This document shows, piece by piece, positions 2,513 through 43,671 of a stretch of 64,000 nucleotides of DNA; the first letter of the stretch is position 1, and each line of letters begins with the position of its first letter. The stretch is from an uncultured Pelagibacteraceae bacterium (GTDB taxonomy: Bacteria > Pseudomonadota > Alphaproteobacteria > Pelagibacterales > Pelagibacteraceae). Where the stretch lies: the NCBI GenBank assembly GCA_902543245.1, contig CACBXQ010000005.1:1-64000 (forward strand), read 5' to 3'. The notes beneath the pieces were generated by a model that was not told where the DNA came from, did not search any database, and saw nothing but the letters and a program-made list of their open reading frames with translations. The position numbers and the translations under genes were made by a program.

Positions 2513-2525
2513 AGTCTAAATTTTA

Positions 2526-5401: not shown

Positions 5402-5416
5402 AAATTAAGTTCTGCT

Positions 5417-6532: not shown

Positions 6533-6541
6533 ATATGAAAA

Positions 6542-7885: not shown

Positions 7886-7918
7886 ATTTTTAAATGTTAA
7901 TTAAAGAGTAGTAGACTA

Positions 7919-7950
7919 AATTTATAATTTTAACTAGAAAATTATAAATT
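7919..7950. promoter_or_regulatory. Perfect 13-bp inverted repeat in the divergent aminotransferase/tauA control region
   Basis: The 13 bases at 7919-7931 are the exact reverse complement of 7938-7950, separated by the 6-base spacer aactag. It lies just upstream of the aminotransferase start and about 140 bases upstream of tauA. There is no T-run, so it looks more like an operator or cruciform than a terminator. The repeat is all A/T, so chance formation in this AT-rich DNA cannot be dismissed. Which regulator would bind is unknown, and no regulator gene is adjacent. Confidence 0.45.
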
Positions 7951-7970
7951 GATGAGTAAGACAAATCATC

Positions 7971-7985
7971 ACAACTGATAGTTGT
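7971..7985. promoter_or_regulatory. Short dyad acaact-gat-agttgt in the tauA upstream region
   Basis: A perfect 6-bp dyad with a 3-base centre lies in the middle of the 202-base divergent region. Its mixed base content makes it less likely to be a composition artefact than the neighbouring A/T palindrome. It is a candidate operator for co-regulation of the aminotransferase and taurine transport genes. Function is inferred from position only. Confidence 0.35.
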
Positions 7986-8087
7986 ATTTAAAAATTAATC
8001 ATATCCGTTATGAGCTTTTCATCATTTACATAACAATAAATTTGAACTTAAATAAGATCAATTAAATTTAATTAACAAGGGGAATAA

Positions 8088-9029
8088 ATGAAAAAAACGT
8101 TGAGATTCATTCTTGGATTACTTGTTGCTTTTAACTTAAGTATGTCAGTTGCTAATGCTGCTGCAAACGAAGTTAGAGTTGCGTATTTCTTAGAATGGCC
8201 AAGTCCAAACCTAGAGGACATGCAAAAGAAAAATTTTGAAAAAGCTCTTGGTGTTCCTGTAAAATGGACAAACTTTACAAATGGTGGAGCAATGACTGAT
8301 GCAATGCTTGCAGGAGATATTGATATATCTTATTCACAAGGTCTAGTTCCATTTATCAATGCTGTTAAATCAAAAGCACCTATTAAATTAGTTGATATTG
8401 CTATGGAATACGGAATGGGAGGAACTACTTGTGTTACTTCAAATGCATCTGGAATTACAAAAGCAAATGCTACTGAATTAGAAGGTAAAAAAGTTGCAGT
8501 TCCATTAGGAACTATGGCTGAGTATGTTTTTGATGAAAGTATGAAAGTGGTAGGAGCTGATAGAAGTAAAATGGATGTAATTCAAATGGATCCTGAAGAA
8601 GGTGCTAATGCATTAGTAAGTGGTGATGTTGTAATGGCATGTTTATTTGGTGGTAATTCTATTAAATCAGCTGTTGCAGTTGGATCAAGACTTTTAACTG
8701 TTCAAGAAGCAAGAGATGCAGGTATCTTAGGAATAGATATTACATCTGTAACAGATAAATTTATGAAAGAAAATCCAGGTATGCTTAGAACTTTCGTAGA
8801 AGTAACTCATGAAGCTAACGCGAGATATAGAGCGGGAAAAAGCGATATGAATTCTATGTCAAAAGCTTCTGAAATGGCAGTTGCAGATATGAAAGAAACT
8901 TTAAGTGGATTTAAATTTCTAACACCTGCTGAAACGAAAGCATCTATGGAGAGTGGAAACCTAGACGGATTCCTAAAAGGAATGGGTACACCTAGTGGTT
9001 CAGTAGATACTAGTTTTTTACCTCTATAA
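8088..9029 (+). CDS. tauA: Taurine ABC transporter periplasmic binding protein
   Basis: A 313-residue solute-binding protein with a clear signal peptide (MKKTLRFILGLLVAFNL..., cleavage after the ANAA region near residue 24). The mature part resembles the TauA/SsuA/NMT1 periplasmic family: an EVRVAYF start, ligand-loop residues, and LDGFLKGMG near the C terminus. It captures taurine or a similar sulfonate for TauBC. The start is supported by a strong AAGGGG Shine-Dalgarno at 8077-8082. It is followed by a strong terminator and then tauB, so it is probably expressed above the membrane components. Taurine specificity is inferred from the adjacent aminotransferase and alanine dehydrogenase. Confidence 0.88.
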   Translation: MKKTLRFILGLLVAFNLSMSVANAAANEVRVAYFLEWPSPNLEDMQKKNFEKALGVPVKWTNFTNGGAMTDAMLAGDIDISYSQGLVPFINAVKSKAPIKLVDIAMEYGMGGTTCVTSNASGITKANATELEGKKVAVPLGTMAEYVFDESMKVVGADRSKMDVIQMDPEEGANALVSGDVVMACLFGGNSIKSAVAVGSRLLTVQEARDAGILGIDITSVTDKFMKENPGMLRTFVEVTHEANARYRAGKSDMNSMSKASEMAVADMKETLSGFKFLTPAETKASMESGNLDGFLKGMGTPSGSVDTSFLPL

Positions 9030-9047
9030 TTTAGGTATTAAAAATAT

Positions 9048-9087
9048 AAATAGGCGCCAATTTTTAAATTGGTGCCTATTTTTTTAT
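9048..9087 (+). terminator. Rho-independent terminator between tauA and tauB
   Basis: A 16-bp stem (9048-9063 with 9066-9081) built around taggcgcc/ggtgccta, with one G-T wobble and a very short loop, runs into a T-tract. It lies 19 bases after the tauA stop and 24 bases before tauB. It would stop most transcripts after tauA and let a minority read into tauBC. Confidence 0.9.
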
Positions 9088-9110
9088 AAATTATCTTATA
9101 TAATTTTTGT

Positions 9111-9908
9111 ATGACAGATTTAATTTCTCAGAATTTGAATATGATATTCAAAACTCCGAAAGGAGACACTGTTCATGCATTAAAGGATTTAAACTTTACT
9201 TTAAAAAAAGGAGAACTGTTAACTGTTCTTGGTCCATCAGGTTGTGGTAAAACAACTCTTTTAAACATCGCTGCTGGGTTCATTAAACCAACCTCAGGAA
9301 ATATTACATTAAATAATAAAGAGATTGAAGGACCTGGTGTTGAACGTGGAATGGTTTTTCAACAAGGGGCTTTATTCGAATGGTTAACTGTAGCCGAAAA
9401 CGTAAATTTTGGGTTGAGAATGAAAAAAAATGATTCAATTGAGACGCAAAGAAAAGTTGATGAATGGTTAGAAATTGTAGGTCTTAAGGGATTTGGAAAC
9501 ACTCCAACTTATCAATTATCTGGAGGGATGCAGCAAAGGGTTGCTCTTGCTAGGTGTTTAATAAATGATCCTGACTTAATATTAATGGATGAACCTCTAG
9601 GAGCTTTAGATGCTTTAACTAGAGAAAAGATGCAATCTTTAGTCTTAAAAATTTGGAAAGAAACTGGAAAAACTATAATTTTAATTACCCACTCAGTTGA
9701 AGAAGCATTGCTTCTTGGGGAAAGACTATATGTAATGGCTCCTAGACCAGGTCGTATTCATAAAGAATATAAGCTTCCATTTGCAGAAATGGGACTGAAA
9801 GAAGATTTAAGAGAAATTAAAAAGAATAAAGAATTTGGATCAAAAAGAGAGGAAATTCTATCGATGATCTGGAACATGGAAGAAGAAATTATGGGAAAAG
9901 AAAATTAA
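9111..9908 (+). CDS. tauB: Taurine ABC transporter ATP-binding protein
   Basis: A 265-residue ABC ATPase of the TauB/SsuB/nitrate family that energises taurine uptake at the inner membrane. Walker A GPSGCGKT is at residues 41-48, the Q-loop lies in the VFQQGALFEW segment, the signature is LSGGMQQR, Walker B is LILMDEPLGALD, and the switch histidine is in LITHSVEE. The stop is immediately followed by the tauC ATG with no gap. It is placed after the tauA terminator, so it depends on read-through or its own weak promoter. Confidence 0.9.
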   Translation: MTDLISQNLNMIFKTPKGDTVHALKDLNFTLKKGELLTVLGPSGCGKTTLLNIAAGFIKPTSGNITLNNKEIEGPGVERGMVFQQGALFEWLTVAENVNFGLRMKKNDSIETQRKVDEWLEIVGLKGFGNTPTYQLSGGMQQRVALARCLINDPDLILMDEPLGALDALTREKMQSLVLKIWKETGKTIILITHSVEEALLLGERLYVMAPRPGRIHKEYKLPFAEMGLKEDLREIKKNKEFGSKREEILSMIWNMEEEIMGKEN

Positions 9909-11834
9909 ATGTTAACACAAATAGTAACATTATTAATCTTTGTAGCAATCATTGGAAGTATTCTTTATGGGAGAAGATTAATCAAAACAGAAAAAGTAGA
10001 TGCTGTTTTTGGAAATCCAGAAAGGGCAAAAGGTGGCACTCATTGGGTAATAGTTGGGAGTGCTGCTATACTTTTAATTTGGCTATATTATTCTTGGGAC
10101 ATAGCTAAAGCTTTTTATCCAAAATCAGCAAATGAATTATGTCAAGTCGCAAAAATAAACGATTCTTTAATGGGATTAAAATATCAATTTCCAATTGATG
10201 AAAGAGAGTTCAAAAGCACCTCTATAATTAAAATTGAAAATAAAAATCTTAAGAAAATTGAGAAAGAAATCCAAAATACACCTGATTTAAATGATGAACA
10301 AAAAATAATTTTACTACGTTTTATATCAAAAACATCTCAGTTAATTCCTTTACTTACAAATGACTATTTAATGGAGGCAAATACAAAATCTAAAATAAAA
10401 GAAATGAGTGAAGAAATTAGAATTTTAAGCTCAAATTTTAAGAAAAAAGATTATCCATTTGAAACTGAAGCAGATAAAATTGAACGACTTAAAGCCGTGT
10501 CAGAACAAGGTGGCTGGGGAATAATTAAAGTTCAATCAGGAACAGGGTCAATTGAAAATACAATTGAGGTCCCAGTTGTACCTGAAACTAATAAAGGTTT
10601 AAAATTTCACACTGCTGCAGAAGATCTAAAAGTTATAAGCGATAAATTTTTCAAATTAAGAAATCATAACTCAAATTTCAAAACTTCAATTAAAGGGTTA
10701 AAAAATGAAATTAAACTTTATAGAGAAAGCTTAGATGACTCAGAAGAGATTGCTTCAGATTATGCAAAAAATATTGTTAAAATTGCAAGAAGAATTGAAT
10801 TTGCAAGTATATATCCTCCTGGCGCACTTGATGAAATGCAAAGTGCTATCATCGAGTTTGATAATTTACAAAAATCTGAGCAGGGTGGTTTAAGATTAAT
10901 TGACATAATTTTATTCCCAGCAGGTACAATAGTTGCAAGTGGTCCAAGTTGTTCCGAACAAGGATCAGGTAGGTGGCTCCCTAAACCATCAGATACATTT
11001 AATAAATTTATATTAATGTCAAAACCTAGCGTTGGTTATAAAAATATTCCGCTTCTTTGGATTGAAATGATGGATGTAAGCTCAATAATTGGGTTTATTT
11101 TACCAGATTGGATAGCTGATATTTTGCCAGGTAATTATCCAGTGCATACTAAAGATGGTATTGTTAAAGAGAATTTTAAAGGCAAAGTTTTAAAAATTGT
11201 AACTGGTGATTTTAAATTATTTAAAATCCCCGTACCTTATGGACATATTTGGGATTCTTTCTTAAGGGTATTCCTTGGATTAGTTTTTGGAATTATTATT
11301 GGTGTGCCATTGGGATTATTTATGGGGCTAAATAGATTTGCAAAAGGTTTTTTTGATCCATTAATAGAACTATATAGACCAGTTCCACCTTTGGCATGGG
11401 CTCCTCTTATAATCTCAGTTTTGGGTATTGATAATACTGGAAAAGTATTTTTATTATTCATGGTTTCTTTATCTATAATGATAATTTCTGCTAGAGCTGG
11501 AGCATCCGGAACCCAACTTTCTAAAATACATGCAGCACACTCACTTGGAGCATCAAAAAGACAGATTTTAAGATACGTAATATTTCCTAACTCTTTACCT
11601 GAAATATTGACTGGAATTAGAGTTGCAGTTGGAATGTGTTGGGGAACACTAGTTGCTGCTGAATTCTTGGCTGGAACAACGGGTATTGGATTTGTTGAAA
11701 ATGTTGCTAAAAAATACTTTCAATATGAAGTTATTTGGATAACTATCTTTATCATGGGTATGCTGGGACTATTATTCGACGTTACATTAAGAAAAATAAT
11801 AGATAAAACTATCCCATGGCGTGGAAAAGGTTAA
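9909..11834 (+). CDS. tauC: TauC-type ABC permease with a large inserted N-terminal domain
   Basis: A 641-residue protein. Only residues from about 434 onward form the normal TauC/SsuC BPD_transp_1 permease, with membrane helices and the EAA coupling loop in HAAHSLGASKRQILRYVIFPNSLPEI. Before it come two hydrophobic helices (about 3-20 and 46-64). About 360 mainly charged, helix-rich residues follow, with coiled-coil-like stretches around 110-180 and 255-315, and should face the periplasm. Ordinary TauC proteins are about 250-280 residues, so the inserted region is the odd part. It follows tauB directly and overlaps the next gene by 19 bases. Permease identity is secure; the role of the insert is unknown. 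Confidence 0.85.
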   Translation: MLTQIVTLLIFVAIIGSILYGRRLIKTEKVDAVFGNPERAKGGTHWVIVGSAAILLIWLYYSWDIAKAFYPKSANELCQVAKINDSLMGLKYQFPIDEREFKSTSIIKIENKNLKKIEKEIQNTPDLNDEQKIILLRFISKTSQLIPLLTNDYLMEANTKSKIKEMSEEIRILSSNFKKKDYPFETEADKIERLKAVSEQGGWGIIKVQSGTGSIENTIEVPVVPETNKGLKFHTAAEDLKVISDKFFKLRNHNSNFKTSIKGLKNEIKLYRESLDDSEEIASDYAKNIVKIARRIEFASIYPPGALDEMQSAIIEFDNLQKSEQGGLRLIDIILFPAGTIVASGPSCSEQGSGRWLPKPSDTFNKFILMSKPSVGYKNIPLLWIEMMDVSSIIGFILPDWIADILPGNYPVHTKDGIVKENFKGKVLKIVTGDFKLFKIPVPYGHIWDSFLRVFLGLVFGIIIGVPLGLFMGLNRFAKGFFDPLIELYRPVPPLAWAPLIISVLGIDNTGKVFLLFMVSLSIMIISARAGASGTQLSKIHAAHSLGASKRQILRYVIFPNSLPEILTGIRVAVGMCWGTLVAAEFLAGTTGIGFVENVAKKYFQYEVIWITIFIMGMLGLLFDVTLRKIIDKTIPWRGKG

Positions 11835-12877
11835 TAATATTTCTTTTTTTTTTCTCTCTTTCTGCTGAAGCAGAGGAATTTAAACTTGATAAATTAGTTT
11901 CATTAAATAAACCGTGGGGTTCTACATTTGTTGATAATGATCATTTGCTAGTAACTGAACAAAGTGGGTCTATTAAATTAGTTAATATTAGAACTAAAGA
12001 AATAAGTATTGTTAAACATAACTTGAAATTTTTAGAATATGGACAAGGTGGTCTGCTTGATATCATTTATCAAGATAACATGGTTTGGATATCATACTCA
12101 GAAAATCGAGGTAATTGGAAAACAAGCACATCAATTGCTAAAGGTGAATTTAATAATTCTGAAATAAAATTTGAAAACATCTTTCAGGCTAATCCACCAA
12201 TAGATTCTGGTTATCATTTTGGATCAAGATTAGCTATTAAAGGAAAATATTTATTTGCCTCAGCTGGTGAAAGAGGTGAAGGAATGATTGCACAAGATGC
12301 AAGTAAGCATCCAGGTAGTATTATCAGAATTAATTTAGATGGAAGTATACCAAAAGATAATCCCAAATTTTTAGATAAACCAAAATGGCTTCCTGAAATT
12401 TATCAAATAGGAGTTAGAAATCCTCAAGGTCTAACACTATCTCCATTTGATAATAAAATTTACATAAGTAATCATGGGGCTAAAGGGGGTGATTGGTTTG
12501 GTGAAGTTAAAAAAGGTGAAAATTATGGTTGGAAAATTTTAGGTTGGGGAGGAACTAATTACAATGGAACAAAAATTGGTCCAAAGTGGAAACCTGGTTT
12601 CACAAAGGCTATTCATTACTGGGTTCCTTCAATAGCAGCCAGCGCAATTACAATTTACAAAGGAAAAGAATTTAAAGAATGGAATGGATTAGCATTGATT
12701 ACATCCTTAAAGGACATGTCTTTAAGAAAACTAGATTTTTCTGACAAAGAAAATGTTAAAGAAAACTTTATATTTAAAAATCAAATTGGACGCATAAGAG
12801 ATATACAAGTCCACTCTATAACTGGTAAAATATATTTTTTAAGTCAGGATGCTTTATGGGAAATGCGAAAGAAATAG
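11816..12877 (+). CDS. Secreted PQQ-dependent aldose dehydrogenase-like beta-propeller (GSDH family)
   Basis: A 353-residue protein with an N-terminal signal peptide (hydrophobic residues 5-16, cleavage near AEAEE). It has the six-bladed propeller pattern of the glucose/sorbosone dehydrogenase family. Recognisable pieces are the NPQGL motif after VR and the SNHGAKGGDWFG...GENYGW stretch that forms the PQQ/calcium site in soluble aldose dehydrogenases. Family knowledge: periplasmic oxidation of aldoses using PQQ; substrates are often uncertain. No PQQ biosynthesis genes are in the window. The ATG lies inside the end of tauC, so it is probably read from the tauBC transcript. Confidence 0.8.
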   Translation: MAWKRLIIFLFFFSLSAEAEEFKLDKLVSLNKPWGSTFVDNDHLLVTEQSGSIKLVNIRTKEISIVKHNLKFLEYGQGGLLDIIYQDNMVWISYSENRGNWKTSTSIAKGEFNNSEIKFENIFQANPPIDSGYHFGSRLAIKGKYLFASAGERGEGMIAQDASKHPGSIIRINLDGSIPKDNPKFLDKPKWLPEIYQIGVRNPQGLTLSPFDNKIYISNHGAKGGDWFGEVKKGENYGWKILGWGGTNYNGTKIGPKWKPGFTKAIHYWVPSIAASAITIYKGKEFKEWNGLALITSLKDMSLRKLDFSDKENVKENFIFKNQIGRIRDIQVHSITGKIYFLSQDALWEMRKK

Positions 12878-13866
12878 AAAGATTAGTTTATAAAATTTTT
12901 TTAAAACATGGAATGAGCTCTAATCATTCAAAAATATCTGCAAAAGCTATTACTAATGCTGAACTAATCGGTGCACCTACTCATGGTTTGGCGAGACTTA
13001 AAATGTATTGTGATAGAATTAATAAAAAATTGATTAACCCAAGACCAAAAATTAAGATTAAAAAAATTTCCTCATCTGTTTCTCATGTGGATGCAAATAA
13101 TAGTATTGGATTTGTTGCTGGTGAAGTTGGAATTAAACAAGCAATAAAAAATGCAAAAAAAACAGGTATTGGTTTGGTTGGTATTAAAAACAGTGGTCAT
13201 TATGGATTGTCAGGATATTACGCTGAACAAGCTGTTAAAAAAAATTTAATTGCTTTTTGTTTTACAAATGCACCCCCTGCAATTGCTCCATATGGTGCGA
13301 GAAAAAGTTTATTTGGAACAAACCCAGTGTGTTTTGGCACTCCAACATCAAATAAAATTCCCTTTATATTTGACTCGTCAGTTTCAATAATTAATAGAGG
13401 TAAAATTAGAGTAGCAGCAAGAAATAAAAAAAAAATACCAGAAGGTGTTGCATTAGATAAATATGGGAAACCTACAACAGATGCCATAAAAGCATTAGCG
13501 GGAGTACAATTGCCAATTGCTGGATTTAGAGGATCAGGATTTGCTTGGATGGTTGATATATTAAGTGGTGTATTAACTGGAGGTAATCATGGAGGAAAGG
13601 TAAAGGATCCATTTGATGATTTCTCAGGACCACAAAATATTGGTCATTTGTTTTTTGTATTAAAACCTAATTTATTTATTGGAAACTATTCTCAAAGAAT
13701 AAAAGAAAATATTAGAAGAATAAAAAGATTACCAAAAATAAAAGGTGTAAAAGAAATTTTATACCCTGGTGAAAATAAATTTAGAAGATATAAAAAAAAT
13801 TTAAAAAGAAATATTATTATTCCAAAAAATATTCAAAAAGATATTGAAGAATTAAATGTCAAATAA
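12856..13866 (+). CDS. Ldh_2 family (malate/L-lactate/L-sulfolactate dehydrogenase type) oxidoreductase
   Basis: A 336-residue member of the NAD(P)-dependent Ldh_2 family, which is unrelated to classical lactate dehydrogenase. Conserved landmarks are THGLARLKMY (substrate-binding His/Arg), KNSGHYGLSGYYA, GTNPVCFGTP, NRGKI and RGSGFAWMVDILSG. Known members reduce or oxidise malate, lactate, sulfolactate, ureidoglycolate or delta-1-piperideine-2-carboxylate. The start overlaps the upstream gene by 22 bases and the end overlaps the next by 11, giving a coupled operon. Placement behind tauABC makes a sulfonate substrate such as sulfolactate conceivable, but this is speculation. Confidence 0.8.
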   Translation: MGNAKEIERLVYKIFLKHGMSSNHSKISAKAITNAELIGAPTHGLARLKMYCDRINKKLINPRPKIKIKKISSSVSHVDANNSIGFVAGEVGIKQAIKNAKKTGIGLVGIKNSGHYGLSGYYAEQAVKKNLIAFCFTNAPPAIAPYGARKSLFGTNPVCFGTPTSNKIPFIFDSSVSIINRGKIRVAARNKKKIPEGVALDKYGKPTTDAIKALAGVQLPIAGFRGSGFAWMVDILSGVLTGGNHGGKVKDPFDDFSGPQNIGHLFFVLKPNLFIGNYSQRIKENIRRIKRLPKIKGVKEILYPGENKFRRYKKNLKRNIIIPKNIQKDIEELNVK

Positions 13867-14299
13867 AGATCATTCAAAGCCTTTAATGCTTTATGTGGCA
13901 GAACTTATATATTTAGAAGTAGTTGAGATCAAAAAAAGAAATCCTAATATAACAAATATAGTTTCAATTGAAATGTTTATAGGATCAAAAACATATAATG
14001 AAATTAGCAGTGGTAAATATCATGATAATTTATTTCAAAACTTGAAGGAAAATAATTTTATAAATAAAGAGACTGGTATAAAAATACCTAGGGAAACATT
14101 AGATTTACTAAATTTACAAAAAAAAACAATTATTGATCAGCTTTCAGAAAATACTGAAACTTATTTTGCAAAAAGTTCATTTCCATTATCAAATTCCCAA
14201 AATGCTTTTAATCTTTTATGGAGAATGTGTGAGACTTATGAGCTGTGGTGCAAAGAAGTAGGAAATAAAAAACTTATTAAATTAAATATAATTGATTAA
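13856..14299 (+). CDS. Unknown protein, 147 aa
   Basis: I do not recognise this protein. It is soluble-looking with no signal peptide or membrane helix, and is predicted mostly helical. It contains a central LLNLQKKTIIDQLSEN helix and a tryptophan/cysteine-containing C-terminal part (LLWRMCETYELWCKEVG). It overlaps the upstream Ldh_2-type gene by 11 bases, so it is translated from the same message and is likely real. It ends convergently against the minus-strand genes that follow, sharing 4 bases with the microprotein at 14296-14385. Confidence 0.7.
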   Translation: MSNKDHSKPLMLYVAELIYLEVVEIKKRNPNITNIVSIEMFIGSKTYNEISSGKYHDNLFQNLKENNFINKETGIKIPRETLDLLNLQKKTIIDQLSENTETYFAKSSFPLSNSQNAFNLLWRMCETYELWCKEVGNKKLIKLNIID

Positions 14300-14385
14300 A
14301 TCAAACTCATATCATTCAAATAAAAAAATGTAGCAAGTGCTATTATCAATAAAATATAGATTATTATAAATGTAACTTTTTTCAT
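14296..14385 (-). CDS. Candidate 29-residue single-helix membrane microprotein
   Basis: A short frame encodes 29 residues beginning MKKVTFIIIYILLIIALATF: two lysines, then one hydrophobic helix, then a short polar tail. An AAGGAT Shine-Dalgarno-like sequence sits 5 bases before the ATG, inside the last codons of the upstream gene, whose stop is only 3 bases away. Spacing and ribosome site favour translation as the last gene of the minus-strand operon. Function is unknown, and it could still be a chance frame in AT-rich DNA. Confidence 0.45.
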   Translation of the reverse strand: MKKVTFIIIYILLIIALATFFYLNDMSLI

Positions 14386-14388
14386 TTA

Positions 14389-15291
14389 TTATCCTTGTTT
14401 AGAAACAGTAAATTTAACTTTTTTATCATTGTAATCTCTACCAGATCCAGTAACTCCTCCATCTTTAATCCATTTAAGAGTACCAGCTGCACCCATATTA
14501 TTTGTGCATGAAATTTGCCAAGTTCCTTTTCCACCCTCTTGAAGAGAATAACTTCCTTCGCATTTGCCATCATTATTAGGCAAAGGAATATTCAAAGTAC
14601 CTTTGTAGTCAGCTTCATTAAATTTTACAGTGCCTGCAATTAAATCTGCATACCCTTCCCAAATTAACGCTATAGGTCTTTCACCTGATAGTTCGTATTT
14701 CTTTACAACTTTCTTTTTATTTTCTTCGGGTTCATTGGTAATTTTTTTCTTAGCTTTTGTAAATTCTTCTTCTGTTAAAAGACCTTCGTCATAAAGTTGT
14801 TTTAAATCTCTCAATTGTTCCGATGTATTAGTTTGTAAATTTATATTTTCAGAATTATCATTTTCTGAAACAGATATATCATCCAAAAAACCAAGTTCAC
14901 CAAGTTTAGCTATTATTTCAGTTTCTGGAGATTTACTATTAATTGTAGTTGCCTTATTAATTCCATTTTTCCATATTATATTTCTTCGTCTTGCAAAAAT
15001 TCCGCATTTTGAATTTGTTTCAGCCTCACATGCTTTTATTGTTTCTGCTACTCCTCCCCTATCACCACATGAGTTAAATCCTTCTGGACAATAAAAATAT
15101 GTAGACCAATTATCTGGACCTTCAGATACTATAAATAAGTACGGTGTTTGACCTCTCGAACCTCTTATATATTCAATAAATCTTGAAACTGTAAAATCGT
15201 CAATACTTAATTCCCCCCTTCCTATTTGGGAAGCAAAAGTTTGTGAGATTGATAAAAAATAACAAAATATAAAAATTAATAATTTTTTCAT
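14389..15291 (-). CDS. Secreted protein with a SHOCT-like segment, function unknown
   Basis: A 300-residue protein with a signal peptide (MKKLLIFIFCYFLSISQTFA, cut before SQIG). The N-terminal domain carries several cysteines (CPEGFNSCGDRGG, CEAE, CGIFA). A short helical hairpin of the SHOCT type (QLRDLKQLYDEGLLTEEEF) lies near residues 160-185. The C-terminal 100 residues look like beta structure, with the paired cysteines of KCEGSY and ISCTN. It likely sits in the periplasm or envelope. The ATG overlaps the stop of the truncated GFA-family gene by 4 bases, so it probably once formed an operon with an intact copy of that gene. Confidence 0.75.
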   Translation of the reverse strand: MKKLLIFIFCYFLSISQTFASQIGRGELSIDDFTVSRFIEYIRGSRGQTPYLFIVSEGPDNWSTYFYCPEGFNSCGDRGGVAETIKACEAETNSKCGIFARRRNIIWKNGINKATTINSKSPETEIIAKLGELGFLDDISVSENDNSENINLQTNTSEQLRDLKQLYDEGLLTEEEFTKAKKKITNEPEENKKKVVKKYELSGERPIALIWEGYADLIAGTVKFNEADYKGTLNIPLPNNDGKCEGSYSLQEGGKGTWQISCTNNMGAAGTLKWIKDGGVTGSGRDYNDKKVKFTVSKQG

Positions 15292-15564
15292 TTTATTCTA
15301 TCTAAACTTTCTTGTGGCCATGTTTTTTCTCTATCATACATCACATCATGACAAATGTCTTTGTTAGGAAGCTCAATCCAAGGATCTTTATCTTTTACAA
15401 ATATATGTGCTTGAGGTTCAATTGGTTCATCTAATGTTGCCGCTCTTACAGCAACTCTACCTTTAGAAACATTGTACTGACAATACAAATACACTCCGCA
15501 TACTACACAAAAATAAGCTTTATAGCCTTTTCCACTCCCAGTTGGTAAATTTGTTGATGAAACT
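15288..15564 (-). pseudogene. 5'-truncated GFA (CENP-V/GFA zinc) family gene
   Basis: The minus strand encodes the C-terminal 90 or so residues of a GFA-family protein. Signs are AYFCVVCG with a retained CxxC zinc pair, VRAATLDEP and EPQAHIFVKDKDPW. The family is normally about 130-150 residues, and its N-terminal half with the other zinc cysteines is missing. At 15564/15565 the GFA sequence stops and the antisense of a duplicated ThDP-enzyme fragment begins. The frame stays open to an ATG at 15716, giving a chimeric 142-residue frame whose first 50 residues are antisense sequence. I judge it non-functional for the GFA role. Confidence 0.75.
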
Positions 15565-16160
15565 TCTCCTGTTATATTTATTACTGGATCAAGTAGTTTA
15601 AAAAGACAAGGCTCTGGTGGATTTAAAGAAATTGATGATGTTTCAATCGCTGCGCCTTTAACAAAATATAGCGCAAGCATCACAGATGGAACTAGAATTC
15701 GAGAATTTGTAGACAAAGCATATAGAATATCAACTAATGGATATCCTGGAGCTGTTCATTTAAGTGTTCCAGTGGATATAATGTTTTCGTCTTTTGCAGA
15801 AAATTCTGGTTTAGAAGAAAGACCATTTTCTCATAGCAAAAAACCAATAGCTAAAGCTTGGCCAGATCCAAATCAACTCACAGAAGTTTTAGAATTAGCA
15901 TGCAAGGCAAAAAAAACAGTTTTAATTGGTGGACATGGAGTGTGGTGGTCTGAGTCTGAAAAAAAATTAGAAGCTGCAGGTAATAATCTAAATATTCCAA
16001 TTTTTAATATTCCTTATCATCAAAAATTATTAGGAGAAGAAGCAAATTCTTATATGGGTCTTGCTGACATACACCAGTATCCACCATCAAAATTCGCACT
16101 ACATGAATCTGATTTAGTGTTAATGGTAGGTGCTAGATTAGATAATCAAATGAATTTTGG
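15565..16160 (+). repeat. 596-bp direct repeat, copy A (fragment of the ThDP-enzyme gene)
   Basis: This block matches 18776-19371 in the same orientation at a constant offset of 3211 bases. By eye I find one substitution in 596 positions (an A in the copy for a C in the intact gene, near 15917, changing Pro to Thr in KAKKPVLIGG). Both edges are sharp: left at tctcctgtta and right at tgaattttgg. Near-identity in an otherwise non-repetitive region means a very recent duplication or an assembly/amplification artefact. Confidence 0.95.
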
Positions 16161-16179
16161 TTGCAACCCCTGGTTTTAG
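15565..16179 (+). pseudogene. Internal fragment of ThDP-enzyme gene (residues 94-291 of the gene at 18497)
   Basis: The plus strand of the duplicated block reads in frame through the middle of the acetolactate-synthase-like protein, then ends at a stop 6 codons past the junction (NFGCNPWF). It lacks the N-terminal cofactor domain with its catalytic glutamate and the C-terminal GDG...NN ThDP motif, so it cannot be an active enzyme. It is out of frame with the GcvT fragment that follows, so no fusion protein forms. Confidence 0.85.
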
Positions 16180-16642
16180 ATGTAGAAGAATTGAAGCTGG
16201 CCTTTTATCAGCCGGCCAAGACTTTTCAAAATACACAAACCCTTTCTCAGTTGGTTTAGGAAAGTTTATTGATTTTGATAAAGAAAATTTCATTGGAAAG
16301 AATGCTCTAAGCAAGGCAGACAAAACATGTTTTAGTTGGGGAATAAGAGTTGAAGATGGAATCGCAATTAAAGGAGAGATTGTTAATTCAAATGGAAAAG
16401 AAGTTGGAAAAATTACATCAAGTACTTGGTCTCCATATCAAGTATGTGGAGTAGGTATAGTTTATTTAAATGACAAAAATTTAACCGCTGGTTCTATTGT
16501 TGAAGTAAAATGTACTGATGGAAAAATTCATAAAGGTGAACTTTGTAAATTACCAATGTATGATCCAAAAGGCGATATAGTTAGAGGCATAAACAAAACA
16601 ATACCAACAAAACCAGAACCTTGGGGCGGAATAAAAGGTTAG
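16161..16642 (+). pseudogene. 5'-truncated GcvT/aminomethyltransferase-family gene
   Basis: From the right junction the plus strand encodes about 160 residues of the C-terminal part of a GcvT-family folate enzyme. The family glycine-rich helix RRIEAGLL is followed by FSVGLGKFIDFDKENFIGKNAL and a GCV_T_C barrel ending YDPKGDIVRGI. About 220 N-terminal residues, including the start and promoter, are missing compared with full-length relatives at 21066 and 39623. An ATG at 16157 straddles the junction but would give only half a folate-binding fold. Its TAG stop shares a base with the GTG of the peptidase gene, so an intact ancestor headed that operon. Confidence 0.8.
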
Positions 16643-17337
16643 TGAGTTCAGTTACAAAAAAAATAATAGCAGTTGGTGGAGGAGGATTTACTCACAACTC
16701 TGATCGTGAATTAGATCAATTTATCTTAAGTCAATTTAGCAAAGAACATTTAAAAATAGGATTTTTGGGTACTGCAAGCAAAGATGATGAATATAAAGTT
16801 AACTTATTTTATGAGAGGTTTGATAATCAAAAAAATCAATTATCTCATTTTAACTTATCCAAACAACTAGATGGTTTTAGAAAATGGTTATTTGAACAAA
16901 ATATTGTCTATATTGGAGGAGGGAACACAAATTATATGCTTAATCTTTGGTCTGAAAATAATCTTAAAGATATATTTAAAGAAGCATATGAAAAAGGAAT
17001 TATTTTATCTGGCGTAAGTGCGGGAGCAGTTTGTTGGTTTGAATGGATATTAACTGACTCTCTCGGTGATGGCTATCAACCATTAAAAGGTGTTGGTTTA
17101 CTAGAAGGAAGTTGCACACCACACTCTTCGGATTTAAATCGAATAAATGAATTTGAAAATAACATCAAAAACAGCAAATTACCTCCAGGTTTTGCAATTG
17201 ATGATGGTGTAGCCGTCCTTTTTATTGACGGAAAACCATCTGATGTTTATTCTGCAAGAAAAAATCATAATGCTTACTTTGTAAATAAAGAAAACAAAAT
17301 TAGCCTTAACGAATATATTAAAATATTGAATGAGTGA
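16642..17337 (+). CDS. Peptidase E-like protein (S51 family, class I glutamine amidotransferase-like fold)
   Basis: A member of the S51/peptidase E family, about 231 residues. The nucleophile elbow GVSAGAV gives Ser126 counted from the GTG start. The N-terminal GGGGF loop and the YIGGGNTNYML segment match the family. Relatives cleave Asp-X dipeptides or cyanophycin-derived beta-aspartyl dipeptides. I choose the GTG at 16642 because it overlaps the upstream TAG by one base, the coupling style used elsewhere here; a TTG at 16621 is possible. It overlaps the next gene by 8 bases. It has lost its native upstream promoter region because of the adjacent rearrangement. Confidence 0.78.
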   Translation: MSSVTKKIIAVGGGGFTHNSDRELDQFILSQFSKEHLKIGFLGTASKDDEYKVNLFYERFDNQKNQLSHFNLSKQLDGFRKWLFEQNIVYIGGGNTNYMLNLWSENNLKDIFKEAYEKGIILSGVSAGAVCWFEWILTDSLGDGYQPLKGVGLLEGSCTPHSSDLNRINEFENNIKNSKLPPGFAIDDGVAVLFIDGKPSDVYSARKNHNAYFVNKENKISLNEYIKILNE

Positions 17338-18493
17338 AAATATAATTCCAAGTAATAAAATATTTAGCATTAAAGAAGCTAGAGATTTATCAAAAAAAAG
17401 ACTTCCTAAATTGGTCTTCGATTTTATTGATGGAGCATCAGGAGATGAAAAGCTTTCAGAAATTAATAGCACTGCACTCGATCAAATAAGATTAGAGCCT
17501 AAAGTTTTAAGAAATGTAGAAAAAAGAAGTTTAAAAAAAAGTTTTTTAAATTATCAATTTGATAATCCATTTGGATTTGCACCAATGGGTATGACCAATT
17601 TATCATGGCCAGGAGCTGACGCAATGCTAGCTAAAGAGAGTGCTAGAAACAATATACCTACATGTGTGTCAATGGCATCAACAACAACTTTAGAAGAAAT
17701 GTATGATTTATCTGAAGGCCATTCGTGGATGCAATTATATATTTTTCAAGATGAAGAATTTGTGATGGAACTATTAGATAGAGCTGAGAAAACAGGTTAT
17801 CAAGTTGCAATTTTAACAGTTGATGTTCCCGTATTATCAAGAAGAACAAGAGATGATAAGAATGGTTTTTCTTATCCTTTTAAAATAGGACCAAAACAAT
17901 TTTTTGATTTTGCTACACATCCAACATGGTCTTTATCAACTTTGTTAAAAGGAATTCCGAAGCCAATGAATTATGTGACTTCAAAAAGTGGAGATGGAAT
18001 TTTCAAAAGAAAAGAAAGTAGAGGAACCACAGATTTTGATACTTTAAAAAGAGTAAGAGATAAATGGAAGGGCAAACTTATAATTAAAGGAGTGATGTCT
18101 CCGGATGATGCAGTTAAAATTAAAGATGCTGGTGCTGATGCAATACAAGTTTCAAATCATGGTGGAAGACAACTAGATAGCGCAACTGCAGCAATAAATA
18201 TTTTACCTTTAGTAAGAAAAGCTTTAGGAAATGATTTCCCTTTAATTTTTGATAGCGGAATAAGAAGTGGAAGCGATATAGTACGAGCACTTGCTTTTGG
18301 CGCAGATTATACAATGATTGGTAGACCTGTAATGTATGCTATGGGTGCAGATGGAGCGAAAGGATTAAGAAGAATTGTTGAAATTTTAAAAGAAGAAACA
18401 AGTACTACTCTTGGATTAGTTGGATTAAATGATATTAATGATGTTTCTTCAGAAATAGTTGCAGAAAAAATTATAGGTAATACAAGGTACTAA
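17330..18493 (+). CDS. FMN-dependent alpha-hydroxy acid dehydrogenase/oxidase (LldD/GOX family)
   Basis: A 387-residue TIM-barrel flavoenzyme of the (S)-2-hydroxyacid oxidase family. The active-site pair is seen as SNHGGRQLD with His277 and Arg280, preceded by the FMN-contacting LIIKGV lysine and followed by the phosphate-binding DSGIRSG and GRP motifs. Family members oxidise glycolate, L-lactate or mandelate to the 2-oxoacid. Length is normal. It overlaps the peptidase gene by 8 bases and is 3 bases from the ThDP-enzyme gene, so the oxidase and a probable 2-oxoacid-handling enzyme are made together. The substrate cannot be read from sequence. Confidence 0.87.
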   Translation: MSENIIPSNKIFSIKEARDLSKKRLPKLVFDFIDGASGDEKLSEINSTALDQIRLEPKVLRNVEKRSLKKSFLNYQFDNPFGFAPMGMTNLSWPGADAMLAKESARNNIPTCVSMASTTTLEEMYDLSEGHSWMQLYIFQDEEFVMELLDRAEKTGYQVAILTVDVPVLSRRTRDDKNGFSYPFKIGPKQFFDFATHPTWSLSTLLKGIPKPMNYVTSKSGDGIFKRKESRGTTDFDTLKRVRDKWKGKLIIKGVMSPDDAVKIKDAGADAIQVSNHGGRQLDSATAAINILPLVRKALGNDFPLIFDSGIRSGSDIVRALAFGADYTMIGRPVMYAMGADGAKGLRRIVEILKEETSTTLGLVGLNDINDVSSEIVAEKIIGNTRY

Positions 18494-18496
18494 TTA

Positions 18497-20239
18497 ATGT
18501 CTGATAAAAAAATAAGAGGTGGCTCATTAATTGCTAGAGCCTTAAGAGATAAAGGGATTGAAAAAGTTTTTACTTTATCAGGAGGTTTTTGTAATCCAGC
18601 ATTAGAAGGGTTTATGGAATGTCAGATGGACGTAATTAACTGTCCTCATGAACAGATAGCAGGTCATCTAGCAGATGGTCATACAAGAATTACAAGAAAA
18701 CCTACAGTTTGTCTTGTTGGTCCAGAGGGTTTTGCAAATGCAGTTCCTTCAATGATGGAAGCTTGGGGCGAAAGATCTCCTGTTATATTTATTACTGGAT
18801 CAAGTAGTTTAAAAAGACAAGGCTCTGGTGGATTTAAAGAAATTGATGATGTTTCAATCGCTGCGCCTTTAACAAAATATAGCGCAAGCATCACAGATGG
18901 AACTAGAATTCGAGAATTTGTAGACAAAGCATATAGAATATCAACTAATGGATATCCTGGAGCTGTTCATTTAAGTGTTCCAGTGGATATAATGTTTTCG
19001 TCTTTTGCAGAAAATTCTGGTTTAGAAGAAAGACCATTTTCTCATAGCAAAAAACCAATAGCTAAAGCTTGGCCAGATCCAAATCAACTCACAGAAGTTT
19101 TAGAATTAGCATGCAAGGCAAAAAAACCAGTTTTAATTGGTGGACATGGAGTGTGGTGGTCTGAGTCTGAAAAAAAATTAGAAGCTGCAGGTAATAATCT
19201 AAATATTCCAATTTTTAATATTCCTTATCATCAAAAATTATTAGGAGAAGAAGCAAATTCTTATATGGGTCTTGCTGACATACACCAGTATCCACCATCA
19301 AAATTCGCACTACATGAATCTGATTTAGTGTTAATGGTAGGTGCTAGATTAGATAATCAAATGAATTTTGGAAACCCACCGTTATTTCCAGAAACAACAA
19401 AACTTGTTTGTATTAATGGTTCGCATGAGGAAATTGAACTAAATAGAGCTGCAGATATAAATCTTTTATGTGATCCTGGAGTTTTCTTAGATACCTTAGT
19501 TAGATTAAAAGAAAATAACAAATGGAATTTGGATAAAAAATGGTTTGATGAAAATAAAAAAGAAAAGAAAAAATGGGTAGATAAATCTTTAGAAGATTTA
19601 AGCAAGGAAACAAATGAAGCAGAAAAAAATGGAGGAAAAATTCATCCATTACAATTAGCTTTAGATGTTCAGGATGCATTGAGTGAAAATGACTGGTTGG
19701 TTATTGATGGAGGTAACACTCACTTCTGGTCTGAAATTGCAATTAACATTGCTGGTTCAAAAGGAAAAAAACTTGGAGGAATATTACACCCAGGAACCTT
19801 CAGCATGTTAGGAGTGGGAGTGCCATTTGCAATTTCTGCAAAAAATACTCATCCAAAATCAAATGTAGTTTTAATCAGTGGAGATGGAGCATTTTTATCT
19901 GGAGGATTATCAATTGAAGCAGCATTTCAGGAAAAGAAACCAATAGTTGTGGTAATAGATAACAATGGTGGTTTAGATTGCATATCTCAACAACAAGAAA
20001 GATTATTTGAAAGTGGTAAACATTTTGCAACAGATTTTAGAGACATTCCTTTTCATAAAATATTTGAAGGTTTTGGGGGTCATGGTGAACTGGTTACTAA
20101 GAGAGAGCAACTCGCACCAGCGCTTAAAAGAGCAATTGATAGTGGTAAGACTGCTTGTGTAAATGTAAAAGCTAAAGGAGTTATCAGTCCAATAGTAGCT
20201 GCGGTAAGTGATAAAAGAGATAAGGCTTCAATAGAATAA
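18497..20239 (+). CDS. Thiamine diphosphate-dependent acetolactate synthase-like enzyme (decarboxylase/lyase)
   Basis: A 580-residue member of the three-domain ThDP superfamily. Glu52 in CPHEQIAGH is the conserved cofactor-activating glutamate. The C-terminal SGDG at residues 461-464, followed about 25 residues later by DNN, is the Mg-ThDP motif. The family includes acetolactate synthase, glyoxylate carboligase, oxalyl- and 2-hydroxyacyl-CoA lyases and benzoylformate decarboxylase. I cannot choose among them, but the FMN 2-hydroxyacid oxidase immediately upstream suggests that it acts on a 2-oxoacid made by that enzyme. No small regulatory subunit is present. Residues 94-291 are duplicated upstream at 15565-16160. 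Confidence 0.85.
   Translation: MSDKKIRGGSLIARALRDKGIEKVFTLSGGFCNPALEGFMECQMDVINCPHEQIAGHLADGHTRITRKPTVCLVGPEGFANAVPSMMEAWGERSPVIFITGSSSLKRQGSGGFKEIDDVSIAAPLTKYSASITDGTRIREFVDKAYRISTNGYPGAVHLSVPVDIMFSSFAENSGLEERPFSHSKKPIAKAWPDPNQLTEVLELACKAKKPVLIGGHGVWWSESEKKLEAAGNNLNIPIFNIPYHQKLLGEEANSYMGLADIHQYPPSKFALHESDLVLMVGARLDNQMNFGNPPLFPETTKLVCINGSHEEIELNRAADINLLCDPGVFLDTLVRLKENNKWNLDKKWFDENKKEKKKWVDKSLEDLSKETNEAEKNGGKIHPLQLALDVQDALSENDWLVIDGGNTHFWSEIAINIAGSKGKKLGGILHPGTFSMLGVGVPFAISAKNTHPKSNVVLISGDGAFLSGGLSIEAAFQEKKPIVVVIDNNGGLDCISQQQERLFESGKHFATDFRDIPFHKIFEGFGGHGELVTKREQLAPALKRAIDSGKTACVNVKAKGVISPIVAAVSDKRDKASIE
18776..19371 (+). repeat. 596-bp direct repeat, copy B (inside the intact ThDP-enzyme gene)
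   Basis: This is the parental copy of the block at 15565-16160; here it is in frame inside a full-length coding sequence. The single visible base difference from copy A leaves proline in KAKKPVLIGG here. Having the complete gene on both sides marks it as the source. Confidence 0.95.
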
Positions 20240-20242
20240 ATT

Positions 20243-20578
20243 ATGGCAACATTATCATCACATTTATTAGACTCTAGCAATGGAACTCATGCAGAAGGAG
20301 TAAAAGTATTAATTTATCAAATTAATTCTAATGGAGAAAAAAAATTATTCTTTGAAAGCAAAACAGACGAAGGTGGAAGGATATTAAAAGACATGGATTT
20401 AACTCCAGATGATTGTAAATGTGATTATGAAATGGTTTGTGATATAGCCGGTTATTTTTCAAAAAAAAATATAGTATCTGAAGTTACAGTAAAATTTAAA
20501 ATGGAGGATCCAACTAAAAAATATCACTTACCACTTATAATATCTCCAAATGGCTACTCAATCTGGTGGTCAGAGTAG
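20243..20578 (+). CDS. Transthyretin/5-hydroxyisourate hydrolase-like protein lacking the YRGS tail
   Basis: A 111-residue protein of the transthyretin-like family. It keeps three active-site positions of 5-hydroxyisourate hydrolase: His7 in LSSHLLD, Arg46 in DEGGRI and His95 in KYHLPLIISP. True hydrolases end in Tyr-Arg-Gly-Ser, which completes the active site; here the chain ends YSIWWSE. It lies 3 bases after the ThDP-enzyme gene with no other purine-degradation gene visible. It may be an HIU hydrolase with a divergent tail or a relative acting on another ring or lactone. Fold confidence is high, function low. Confidence 0.75.
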   Translation: MATLSSHLLDSSNGTHAEGVKVLIYQINSNGEKKLFFESKTDEGGRILKDMDLTPDDCKCDYEMVCDIAGYFSKKNIVSEVTVKFKMEDPTKKYHLPLIISPNGYSIWWSE

Positions 20579-20580
20579 TT

Positions 20581-21057
20581 ATGAAAAAGATATATATATC
20601 ATTTATCTTATTTTTTATCTCTTGCTCAAGTTTAATGGCTGAAACTCTTTATATGAATTGTGAGGAAACTATACAGGAAGTAAGAGAGGCCACATATGAT
20701 GATGTATTTGTAAAAGGTGAGATAATTGGAAATAACTACGTAAGATTAAAAAATAATAAAATAATAGATATTTATTTTGCTTATCCTGGAGGCGAAGCAT
20801 TTGAATTACTAAGAAATAAGAAAGTAAAAAAAAATAGTTTAGGTTTTACAGTTGAAGAAAAGTATAAAGATAAAAATTTTAAAACACATGAAAGTTTTAA
20901 ATTCTTAAAACCTTTAGAAGATTATGTTTATAAAAGAACAACATATTTCTGGTCAAAAGGAACAGATACAGATGGTGAAAATGTATCTGATTATGATGGA
21001 TCAGGAAGATGTGAATTTATTAATAAAAAAGAATTTTTAAAACTAATAAATAAATAA
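20581..21057 (+). CDS. Small secreted protein of unknown function
   Basis: About 158 residues from the ATG at 20581, which I prefer to an upstream GTG because it places a normal signal peptide at the N terminus (MKKIYISFILFFISCSSLMA then ETLYMNCEE). The segment FISC also resembles a weak lipobox, so membrane anchoring is possible. The mature part is polar and lysine-rich with two cysteines (MNCEE and GRCEF), perhaps one disulfide. I do not recognise a family. It starts 2 bases after the transthyretin-like gene and 8 bases before the DmdA-like gene. Confidence 0.65.
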   Translation: MKKIYISFILFFISCSSLMAETLYMNCEETIQEVREATYDDVFVKGEIIGNNYVRLKNNKIIDIYFAYPGGEAFELLRNKKVKKNSLGFTVEEKYKDKNFKTHESFKFLKPLEDYVYKRTTYFWSKGTDTDGENVSDYDGSGRCEFINKKEFLKLINK

Positions 21058-21065
21058 AAATAGTT

Positions 21066-22232
21066 ATGAGTAACTTAATAGAAAATAGTACAAAAAGTAT
21101 TAAATTAAATATGTCTAAACGTATTAGACGTACTCCATTTACAAACAAGGTAGAAGAATTGGGTGTTTCAGATTTTACTGTTGTAAATCATATGTTGTTG
21201 CCAAAAGGTTTTAAAAATACAATTTATGAAGATTATTGGCACCTAGCTGAACATGTCCAGCTTTGGGATGTTTCATGTCAAAGACAAGTACAGATAAGCG
21301 GACCAGATGCATTAAAACTCGTTCAAAAATTAACACCTAGATCTTTACAAAAAATGGAGACAGGTAAGTGTTTTTACATACCAATCCTTGATGAAAATGC
21401 TGGGATGATTAATGATCCTGTATTACTAAAATTAGATGATGATATGTTTTGGATATCAATAGCAGACTCTGACATATTGTTGTGGGCAAAAGGTATTGCT
21501 TTAGGGTCAAATTTAAATGTAAGAATAGAGGAGCCAGATGTTTATCCGTTAGCCGTGCAAGGTCCAAAATCAGAAGAACTATTATGTTCTGTATTTGGCG
21601 AAGAAATAAGGAAAATTAAATTTTTTAATTATAGAGTGCTTGATTTTCATGGAACAAAACAAATTATTGCAAGATCAGGATATAGCAAACAAGATGGATT
21701 TGAAATTTATTTTAAAGGTTTTGAAAAATATTTTGATGGAATTGAATTGGGTGAAAAACTTTGGGATACAATATGGGAAGCAGGTAAAAAATTTAATATT
21801 TCACCTGGATGTCCAAATCTTATAGATAGAATTGAAGGTGGTTTAATGTCTTATGGAAATGATTTTACAAAGGATAATAATCCTTTTGAATGCAATTTAG
21901 ACAAATACTGCAATGGAAATAGTAATCACGAATATATTGGAAAAGAAGCTTTAGCTCAAATTATAAATAATGGAGTAAAAAAAAGAATGAGAGGAATAAT
22001 TTTTGATGGTGATTCAATAGTTGCAACAGGTAAACCTTTACCAGTTTTAAACGAGGATGATAAAAAAATTGGCGAAATTACATCAGGAATTTACTCACCT
22101 AGAATTAAAAAAAATGTTGGTCTGTCTATGATATTAAAAGATTATTGGAATGATGGACAAAAAGTTTTAGTCGATACATTGGATGAAAAAAAAAGAAATG
22201 GAACAGTTACATCTTTGCCATTTCCAAAATAA
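21066..22232 (+). CDS. DmdA-like GcvT-family methyltransferase (probable DMSP demethylase or close relative)
   Basis: A 388-residue stand-alone GcvT-fold protein. The N-terminal run SKRIRRTPFTNKVEELGV, the HLAEHVQLWDVSCQRQVQISGPDA block and the CPNLIDRIEGGLMSYGNDF block resemble, from memory, the dimethylsulfoniopropionate demethylase DmdA of SAR11 more than glycine-cleavage T-protein. Family knowledge: DmdA moves a methyl group from DMSP to tetrahydrofolate, giving methylmercaptopropionate. Genes for the next steps (dmdB, dmdC, dmdD) are not evident nearby, although a thiolase follows. DmdA-like non-demethylating paralogues exist, so phylogeny is needed before naming it. Confidence 0.72.
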   Translation: MSNLIENSTKSIKLNMSKRIRRTPFTNKVEELGVSDFTVVNHMLLPKGFKNTIYEDYWHLAEHVQLWDVSCQRQVQISGPDALKLVQKLTPRSLQKMETGKCFYIPILDENAGMINDPVLLKLDDDMFWISIADSDILLWAKGIALGSNLNVRIEEPDVYPLAVQGPKSEELLCSVFGEEIRKIKFFNYRVLDFHGTKQIIARSGYSKQDGFEIYFKGFEKYFDGIELGEKLWDTIWEAGKKFNISPGCPNLIDRIEGGLMSYGNDFTKDNNPFECNLDKYCNGNSNHEYIGKEALAQIINNGVKKRMRGIIFDGDSIVATGKPLPVLNEDDKKIGEITSGIYSPRIKKNVGLSMILKDYWNDGQKVLVDTLDEKKRNGTVTSLPFPK

Positions 22233-22268
22233 TCAAATGCTATATTATGTTAGGAATTAAAATTTAAT

Positions 22269-23393
22269 ATGTATAAATCAGTAATAGCAGGATATTCTCG
22301 TTCACCTTTTACCATGGCAAGAAAAGGAGATCTAATTGATGTTAAGCCAGATATCATGCTTGCAGAAGTTATTAAAAATTTAGTTTCCAAAACAAAAATT
22401 AATCCTATTGAAATAGAAGATGTTATTGTTGGATGTGCTTTTCCTGAGGGAGAGCAGGGTTTTAATATTGGAAAACTTGTAACTTTTTTAAGTGGAATGG
22501 ATATTAAAACATCTGGGATGACCGTAAATAGATGGTGTGGATCTTCTATGGAGGCAATTCATATTGCTGCAGGTAAAATTGCAATGGGTTCTGGTAAAGC
22601 TTTTATATGTGGAGGTGTTGAAAGCATGACAAGAGTTACTACCGGGTTTACTCCAATGCCTTTTCCAAAATCTGAAACAGAAAATCCAAATGTTTATTTT
22701 TCTATGGGAATAACTGCAGAAAATGTTGCAAAAAAATATAATATATCTAGAAAAGAACAACAAGATTTTGCAATATCAAGTCATCAAAAAGCTTATCAAG
22801 CTCAATCAAATGGATATTTTAAAAATGAAATTACTACCATCAATAATTGTTCAACTGATGGAAATATTAGACCTAACTCTAACCAGGAAAAACTTGATGG
22901 TTTAAAGCTAGCATTTGATCAAAATGGAACTGTTACAGCTGCAACGTCATCACCATTAACAGACGGAGCTGCAACCACTTTAATTTGTGAAGAACAATTC
23001 GCAAAAGATAATAATTTAGATATTTTAGCTCGTATTGTTTCAACTTCTGTTCAAGGATGTGATCCTGATGTAATGGGACTAGGTCCAATAGGTGCATCTC
23101 AAAAAGCACTTAAAAGAGCGAAACTTAATATTAATGATATTGATATTGTAGAATTAAATGAAGCTTTCGCATCACAGTCACTAGCTTGCATTAAGGATTT
23201 AGGCATAAATCCAAGCAAAGTTAATTTAGATGGTGGAGCACTTGCTCTTGGACATCCACTTGGAGCTACTGGTGCAAGAATAACTGGTAAAGCTGCTGAA
23301 TTATTGAGAAGAGAAAATAAGAAATATGCACTATCATCACAGTGTATTGGGCTGGGAATGGGAATAGCAACCATTATAGAAAACGTTAATTAA
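22269..23393 (+). CDS. Thiolase family acetyl-CoA acyltransferase/acetyltransferase
   Basis: A 374-residue thiolase. The nucleophile is Cys90 in NRWCGSSMEAI. The C-terminal motifs GHPLGATGARI (catalytic His) and QCIGLGMG (Cys359, proton relay) complete the triad, and NEAFA is present. It joins or splits acyl-CoAs with CoA; the direction may be the last step of beta-oxidation. It lies 36 bases behind the DmdA-like gene on the same strand. Its role there is unclear: it could process acyl-CoA products from the neighbouring catabolic genes. Confidence 0.9.
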   Translation: MYKSVIAGYSRSPFTMARKGDLIDVKPDIMLAEVIKNLVSKTKINPIEIEDVIVGCAFPEGEQGFNIGKLVTFLSGMDIKTSGMTVNRWCGSSMEAIHIAAGKIAMGSGKAFICGGVESMTRVTTGFTPMPFPKSETENPNVYFSMGITAENVAKKYNISRKEQQDFAISSHQKAYQAQSNGYFKNEITTINNCSTDGNIRPNSNQEKLDGLKLAFDQNGTVTAATSSPLTDGAATTLICEEQFAKDNNLDILARIVSTSVQGCDPDVMGLGPIGASQKALKRAKLNINDIDIVELNEAFASQSLACIKDLGINPSKVNLDGGALALGHPLGATGARITGKAAELLRRENKKYALSSQCIGLGMGIATIIENVN

Positions 23394-43459: not shown

Positions 43460-43671
43460 AAAAATTAAACATAATATTATTATTTCTACTTTTCTCTACT
43501 AATGTTTTAGCTGATAAAATTACTAAGGATGGTTTTTTAACGAGCAAGGCTGGATATTTAAAAGATCAAAATATCAATAACCCAGAAAATAAAATAATAT
43601 TAATTTATAATCATGGTCAAAAATTAACTGATGAGAATAGAAGGAAAAGAATATCGTACAATATGGTTTGA
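43456..43671 (+). pseudogene. Truncated secreted-protein frame between mtnP and mtnA
   Basis: A 71-residue frame whose start overlaps the mtnP stop (ATGA). It has a good signal peptide (MKKLNIILLFLLFSTNVLA), then a short domain ending in IILIYNHGQ. That sequence resembles the first strand and oxyanion region of a secreted alpha/beta hydrolase. The frame runs out after 71 residues because it enters the mtnA coding sequence in another phase, overlapping its start by 41 bases. I read it as the 5' stump of a gene deleted down to its head, possibly kept as a coupling leader for mtnA. A functional small exported protein is not excluded. Confidence 0.55.

Follow-up and report, generated by a model that had tools for sequence, protein, structure and literature searches.

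Chimeric molecules formed during MDA were characterized by Lasken and Stockwell 2007 (PMC1855051), in whose data 406 of the 475 chimeras were inverted, and a chimera junction occurred about once per 22 kb of MDA product. Priming on matches of at least 2 nt, reaching up to 21 nt, was reported there for 76.8% of the chimeras. The inversions were distinguished into 337 (of 406) extending over less than 10 kb and 69 above this distance, with microhomology in only 34.8% of the longer ones, and direct switches under 10 kb were represented by 11 of the 475 chimeras. The combination of an inverted join, a deletion and microhomology emerges from this account as the signature of phi29/MDA chimeras. The single-cell genomes of GORG-Tropics were made with WGA-X, which employs phi29 polymerase (PMC10523443, PMC10224968). 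For GORG-Tropics and related Bigelow single-cell genomes, 1.5 misassemblies and 5 mismatches per 100 kb are given (PMC11247762, PMC9771814), and trimming of 100 bp from each contig end is described in one of these two articles.

The locus described here is located in the window, that is, the whole stretch of 64,000 nucleotides analyzed, representing the first 64,000 bases of contig C5 (87,438 bp) of the assembly G000. Where templated insertions and microhomology-mediated template switching occur in vivo, a rearrangement breakpoint is left with a short block of a nearby gene, flanked by microhomologies. The locus shares such a block, copied from a nearby gene and lying between two microhomologies; it differs in that no reciprocal junction (which would lie in an assembly gap) and no sign of spread in the population were seen, and in that a conserved gene is broken. 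Like the MDA chimeras of PMC1855051, it features an inverted second segment (window 1-15564 versus 16160 onward, compared to the nearest relative), loss of the intervening sequence, and short complementary sequences at the junctions (11 nt on the left, 6 of 7 nt on the right). Unlike most of them, it comprises two switches connected by a 596-bp bridge, the second switch is direct, and the joined points are approximately 23 kb apart, a separation under 10 kb being typical, although not defining, of MDA chimeras. Based on sequence comparison, the feature is considered to be a laboratory artefact, either an amplification or an assembly chimera, rather than biology, with a probability of roughly 0.92, most likely formed when the genome of a single cell was amplified by a phi29-type method.

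The copied block and the cut genes on its flanks

Positions 15565-16160 are a direct copy of positions 18776-19371, both 596 bp long, located 3211 bp apart and differing by a single mismatch (15916), as the earlier note had claimed and the repeat comparison confirmed. Extension by blastn yielded the pair 15559-16160 and 18770-19371 (602 bp, three mismatches); neither the window nor the whole contig contained any other repeat pair at E ≤ 1e-5. A chance origin of the copy is negligible, as the expected number of exact matches of 351 bp has a log10 of about -180. As indicated by the repeat comparison and by the comparison with the nearest relative (G296), the bridge (15565-16160, plus strand) was copied from the gene at 18497-20239 (plus strand), which is intact and encodes a ThDP-dependent, acetolactate-synthase-like enzyme of 580 aa. 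At position 15916, the bridge carries an A, compared to a C in the ThDP gene of this genome and in G296, which replaces P by T in the ThDP frame. The divergence between the bridge and its source is one in 596 positions, compared to approximately 4.5% between the same stretch and G296. A duplicated or mobile gene piece was also considered and rejected: within its own genome, the best 40 of 82 candidates for 15500-16250 contained the region itself, the ThDP gene, and no further match except a 37-bp stretch at 84%. Further duplications of ≥60 bp at ≥90% were absent from 289,230 sampled bases of the assembly, a sample composed of C5, C20, and the initial 18.6-20 kb of ten other contigs out of 24.

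The Pfam matches likewise bear out the described position of the block, with the C-terminal part of a minus-strand GFA-family gene on one side and that of a plus-strand GcvT-family gene on the other. The left flank (15291-15563, minus strand) aligned with Pfam GFA (PF04828) at positions 63-115 of 115 only, and the right flank (16157-16639, plus strand) matched positions 5-80 of 80 of GCV_T_C without the folate-binding domain GCV_T. The GFA piece (15288-15563, minus strand) comprises the C-terminal 91 codons, and the GcvT piece (16157-16642, plus strand) the C-terminal 161 codons, i.e., the C-terminal 40%, beginning at approximately residue 247 of its closest ortholog. In the nearest relative, the intact orthologs have 147 aa (GFA, L135:10094-10537) and 407 aa (GcvT, L090:5263-6486). 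GcvT orthologs at ≥60% identity were found in nine of the 60 relatives searched (36 of the same genus and 24 of the same order), all of them in long open frames, and a GFA ortholog was present in 7 out of 16 other genomes searched. Both pieces in the window are judged to be cut genes, because the orthologs in relatives are longer, with 405-431 aa for GcvT in these nine relatives and, including the nearest relative, 147-164 aa for GFA (149-164 aa in the seven other relatives inspected).

Three of the reading frames at the junction are affected by the join. The listed ORF 15288-15716 (minus strand) is a false fusion of GFA with antisense ThDP sequence, and 15772-16179 (plus strand, 135 aa) is a false ORF in which the ThDP fragment continues out of frame into GcvT. 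The listed start codon of 16157-16642 is not a real start, and neither this start nor the two ORFs should be annotated as genes. Adjacent to the GFA piece, a SHOCT-domain gene (14389-15291) overlaps the GFA stop and is absent at the same place in G296. The latter has a 195-aa ORF between its Ldh2-like and 147-aa genes, which the window does not contain.

Gene order in the relatives

The nearest relative found was G296 (AG-333-N06), whose aligned pieces were 86.5-96.7% identical to the window and in which GFA and GcvT are both intact. Two parts of the window matched its locus L090 (contig CABYUS010000007.1, Pelagibacteraceae isolate AG-333-N06) in opposite directions, 16154-20583 at 94.8% and 3-1281 at 96.3%, and approximately 4.7 kb of L090 lies between the two matches. 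Window 3-2723 corresponded to G296:C7:41814-44534 (95%), reaching the end of C7 and standing head to head with GcvT there. Contig G296:C8 was collinear with the window from its first base (4872-13866 at 91%, 13855-14387 at 86.5%, and 15256-15578 at 90%). Beyond the intact 147-aa GFA gene, G296 carries a 381-aa ORF similar to GcvT, followed by a run of other genes. From these alignments, the native order would be the operon (reversed), GcvT, approximately 4.7 kb, window 1 to 15564, GFA, and further genes, where the linking of C7 and C8 follows from the continuity of this segment in contig C5 alone.

The GFA and GcvT breakpoints are thus separated by approximately 20 kb in the nearest relative, with window 1-15564 (segment A) and the 4.7 kb lying between them. 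Base 1 of segment A faces the GcvT operon across the 4.7 kb in this relative, and its GFA end continues into sequence corresponding to contig C20 of the assembly studied. In contig C5, segment A is attached to the GcvT operon by its right end, i.e., it is inverted compared to the nearest relative. It appears that window 1-15564 is joined by the wrong end to 16160 onward, with the piece of the ThDP gene as a bridge; the copied block serves only as a bridge within this more extensive inverted join.

The sequence to the right of the bridge (segment B) starts with genes for the GcvT-like protein, S51 peptidase, FMN dehydrogenase, the ThDP enzyme, a 111-aa protein, a DmdA-like protein, and thiolase (16160-23393, plus strand). 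This operon order was identical in six relatives having the whole operon on one contig (one of them with an extra ORF after GcvT), and was the same in L090 as far as the locus reaches. The ThDP gene occurred once per stretch in the six whole-operon loci; in the other three of the nine GcvT loci, the contigs stop inside the S51 or FMN gene or shortly downstream of it. Window 20584-21078 harbors a 163-aa ORF (20566-21057) without a counterpart in L090, where the 111-aa gene and the DmdA-like gene are 10 bp apart compared to approximately 495 bp in the window. This ORF had no match in the compared stretches of other relatives either, and the region looks like a strain-specific insertion.

Upstream of GcvT, divergent genes of 495-513, 318, 296-298, and 674-687 aa were detected in all nine loci, the last being cut by the contig end in one of them, and L090 features the same 495-318-297-674-aa genes plus one 302-aa gene. 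The window opens with the last two genes of this four-gene series (3-497, truncated by the contig start, and 497-2512), oriented such that GcvT natively stands to the left of base 1 and points away from it. In 9/9 more distant relatives with an ortholog, as well as in G408 and G119, GcvT is arranged head to head with the genes at window 1-2512. A chimeric nature of G296 itself was rejected, since this order occurs in these eleven genomes independently. Synteny also breaks among the relatives at window 2512-2526: in G408, most of 2525-13856 is located approximately 530 kb away from window 9-2485 on one contig, with 11906-12841 elsewhere again, and G296 agrees with the window across this point up to 2723.

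The earlier note had suggested that both genes lost their starts together with a shared promoter region, and that either a templated insertion or a chimeric join was responsible. The truncation of both genes in contig C5 holds, given the intact orthologs; the divergent pair with a shared promoter does not, given the distance between the two breakpoints in the nearest relative. Insertion of a ThDP fragment, or gene conversion, into an ancestral divergent GFA/GcvT pair would account for the layout in contig C5 only. It can hardly be maintained, because GFA and GcvT are not neighbors in any relative inspected, the 495-318-297-674-aa genes occupy the upstream side of GcvT in 9/9 loci, and GFA is situated elsewhere in the relatives. 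Intact divergent GFA/GcvT genes, proposed in the earlier note as something to look for in relatives, were encountered in none of those inspected, and no GFA match was obtained in the nine GcvT-containing stretches. As to the two alternatives, the gene order contradicts the insertion into a divergent pair, and the chimeric join is much better supported.

The place of GFA at the end of segment A looks native, because the nearest relative has GFA there, the adjacency to the rest of segment A being seen in G296:C8 and contig C5 alone. The closest GFA orthologs found (68% identity) in G009 and G026 are located between orthologs of the genes adjacent at window 43459-43631. A native GFA site between 43459 and 43631, as in these two genomes, was rejected in view of the GFA gene at the segment A end in G296.

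Origin of the junction

Contig C20 corresponds over its entire 3,209 bp to L135:10641-13849 at 93% and starts approximately 260 bp past the GFA breakpoint; contig C1 starts 200 bp after the C20 end on the G296 map. On this map, C20 represents the native continuation past GFA in this genome. Both contigs appear as if each had lost 100 bp per end, matching the trimming of Bigelow single-cell genomes. The approximately 4.7 kb separating GcvT from base 1 of the window (L090 1283-5997) returned two weak 44-46-bp matches among the best 40 of 186 candidates in the assembly. For GcvT residues 1-245, no ortholog was found in the assembly (paralogs only, best 38%), nor for the start of GFA (two matches at 27-28% only), and a search for the 495-aa protein, run without a positive control, found nothing there. 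The assembly is broken or misjoined at each missing point, which is expected if uneven amplification left only a chimeric molecule bridging the gap.

At the left junction, the 11 nt TCTCCTGTTAT (15565-15575, plus strand) are common to the native GFA gene of G296 and the ThDP gene. At the right junction (16154-16160, plus strand), ATTTTGG in the window and the ThDP gene stands against ATTTTAG in the native GcvT of G296, i.e., six of seven bases agree, with one mismatch in G296. Each join falls at some base within these two zones, and the lengths of the microhomologies are estimates, the native sequence being that of G296 and not of this cell.

The assembly presumably originates from a single amplified genome, as suggested by the AG-... 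isolate names of relatives (three out of five relative loci, one of them, AG-333-N06, titled 'MAG'), by its fragmentation, and by the 200-bp gap between C20 and C1, which fits 100-bp end trimming. If it was produced by the Bigelow single-cell workflow, approximately 15 misassemblies would be expected in its 997 kb. The switch would have occurred in vitro and not in vivo, probably with both switches on one molecule. During phi29-type amplification of the single cell, the 3' end of a growing strand may have come loose within one of the genes. The first switch would have been primed by the 11-nt GFA/ThDP match on a strand of opposite polarity, and the second, approximately 600 bases from the first, by the 7-nt near-match between ThDP and GcvT; either direction of copying fits. 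The outcome would be an inverted join with a deletion and the 596-bp bridge, and the assembler may have retained the chimera because the true continuations on both sides were missing.

Several observations are at odds with a plain MDA chimera. On the inferred native map, the joined points, from GFA to ThDP, are approximately 23 kb apart, and the second switch is direct and under 10 kb, a rare class. No second duplication appeared in the 289,230 sampled bases, and the right-hand microhomology is imperfect in G296. One substitution in 596 bases exceeds the expectation of 5 mismatches per 100 kb derived from the published Bigelow figures (PMC11247762, PMC9771814). The fidelity of phi29 would itself predict fewer than one substitution in a bridge of 596 bases.

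Within the artefact reading, two simple chimeras (GFA|ThDP and ThDP|GcvT) could have been stitched by the assembler via the ThDP stretch, so that no single molecule contained the whole bridge. In favor of this form, the bridge hardly differs from the native gene and presumably far exceeds the assembler k-mer in length, and each join alone would be of the MDA chimera kind described in PMC1855051. The base at 15916, private to the bridge, suggests a separate molecule instead, although a read error could have the same effect, and this variant is regarded as rather unlikely.

Among the matches listed (best two candidates per genome), none of the 398 other genomes of the genus showed a junction-spanning match. 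At least 90 of the 398, counted by eye in the matches listed, matched the ThDP block with one match each, ending within approximately 15 bp of the block edges; one exception begins inside the block, at a contig end. These results bear on a real and very recent in vivo inversion of approximately 20 kb (segment A plus the 4.7 kb) between the GFA and GcvT breakpoints, with a junction filled by ThDP-templated insertion. The assembly fits such an event, as the reciprocal junction of the N-terminal GcvT and GFA parts would fall in the unassembled gap that separates the left end of C5 from that of C20, and these two parts were the ones without an ortholog in the assembly; the microhomologies and the single bridge substitution also suit a short in vivo history. 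However, the second junction would have to happen to lie in an assembly gap, and a rare event would be required. The inversion is less likely because it breaks GcvT, intact in the ten relatives inspected, must be very recent given the 1/596 difference of the bridge compared to approximately 4.5% to G296, and is unseen in the 398 genomes among the matches listed. It is thus considered quite improbable. If true, it would represent a private ~20-kb inversion in a single cell of SAR11, a streamlined marine bacterium, closed by a templated insertion of 596 bp via microhomology-mediated template switching and caught at its origin before divergence.

Consequences for the use of the contig

The probable chimera is embedded in a contig of 87 kb from a genome whose contamination rating is 0%, and thus escapes contamination scores. 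It is recommended to mask the junction together with its ORFs and to split the join. Signs that can be screened for across single-cell genomes are a near-identical short duplication, mid-gene cuts on both of its flanks, an inversion compared to a close relative, and a native continuation at the end of another contig. The sequence observation stands, but the biological reading, in which two genes were broken by an insertion, does not. Users of contig C5 would be led to regard two genes as broken, ORFs as fused and one gene as duplicated, and to adopt a false gene order for this member of the Pelagibacteraceae.
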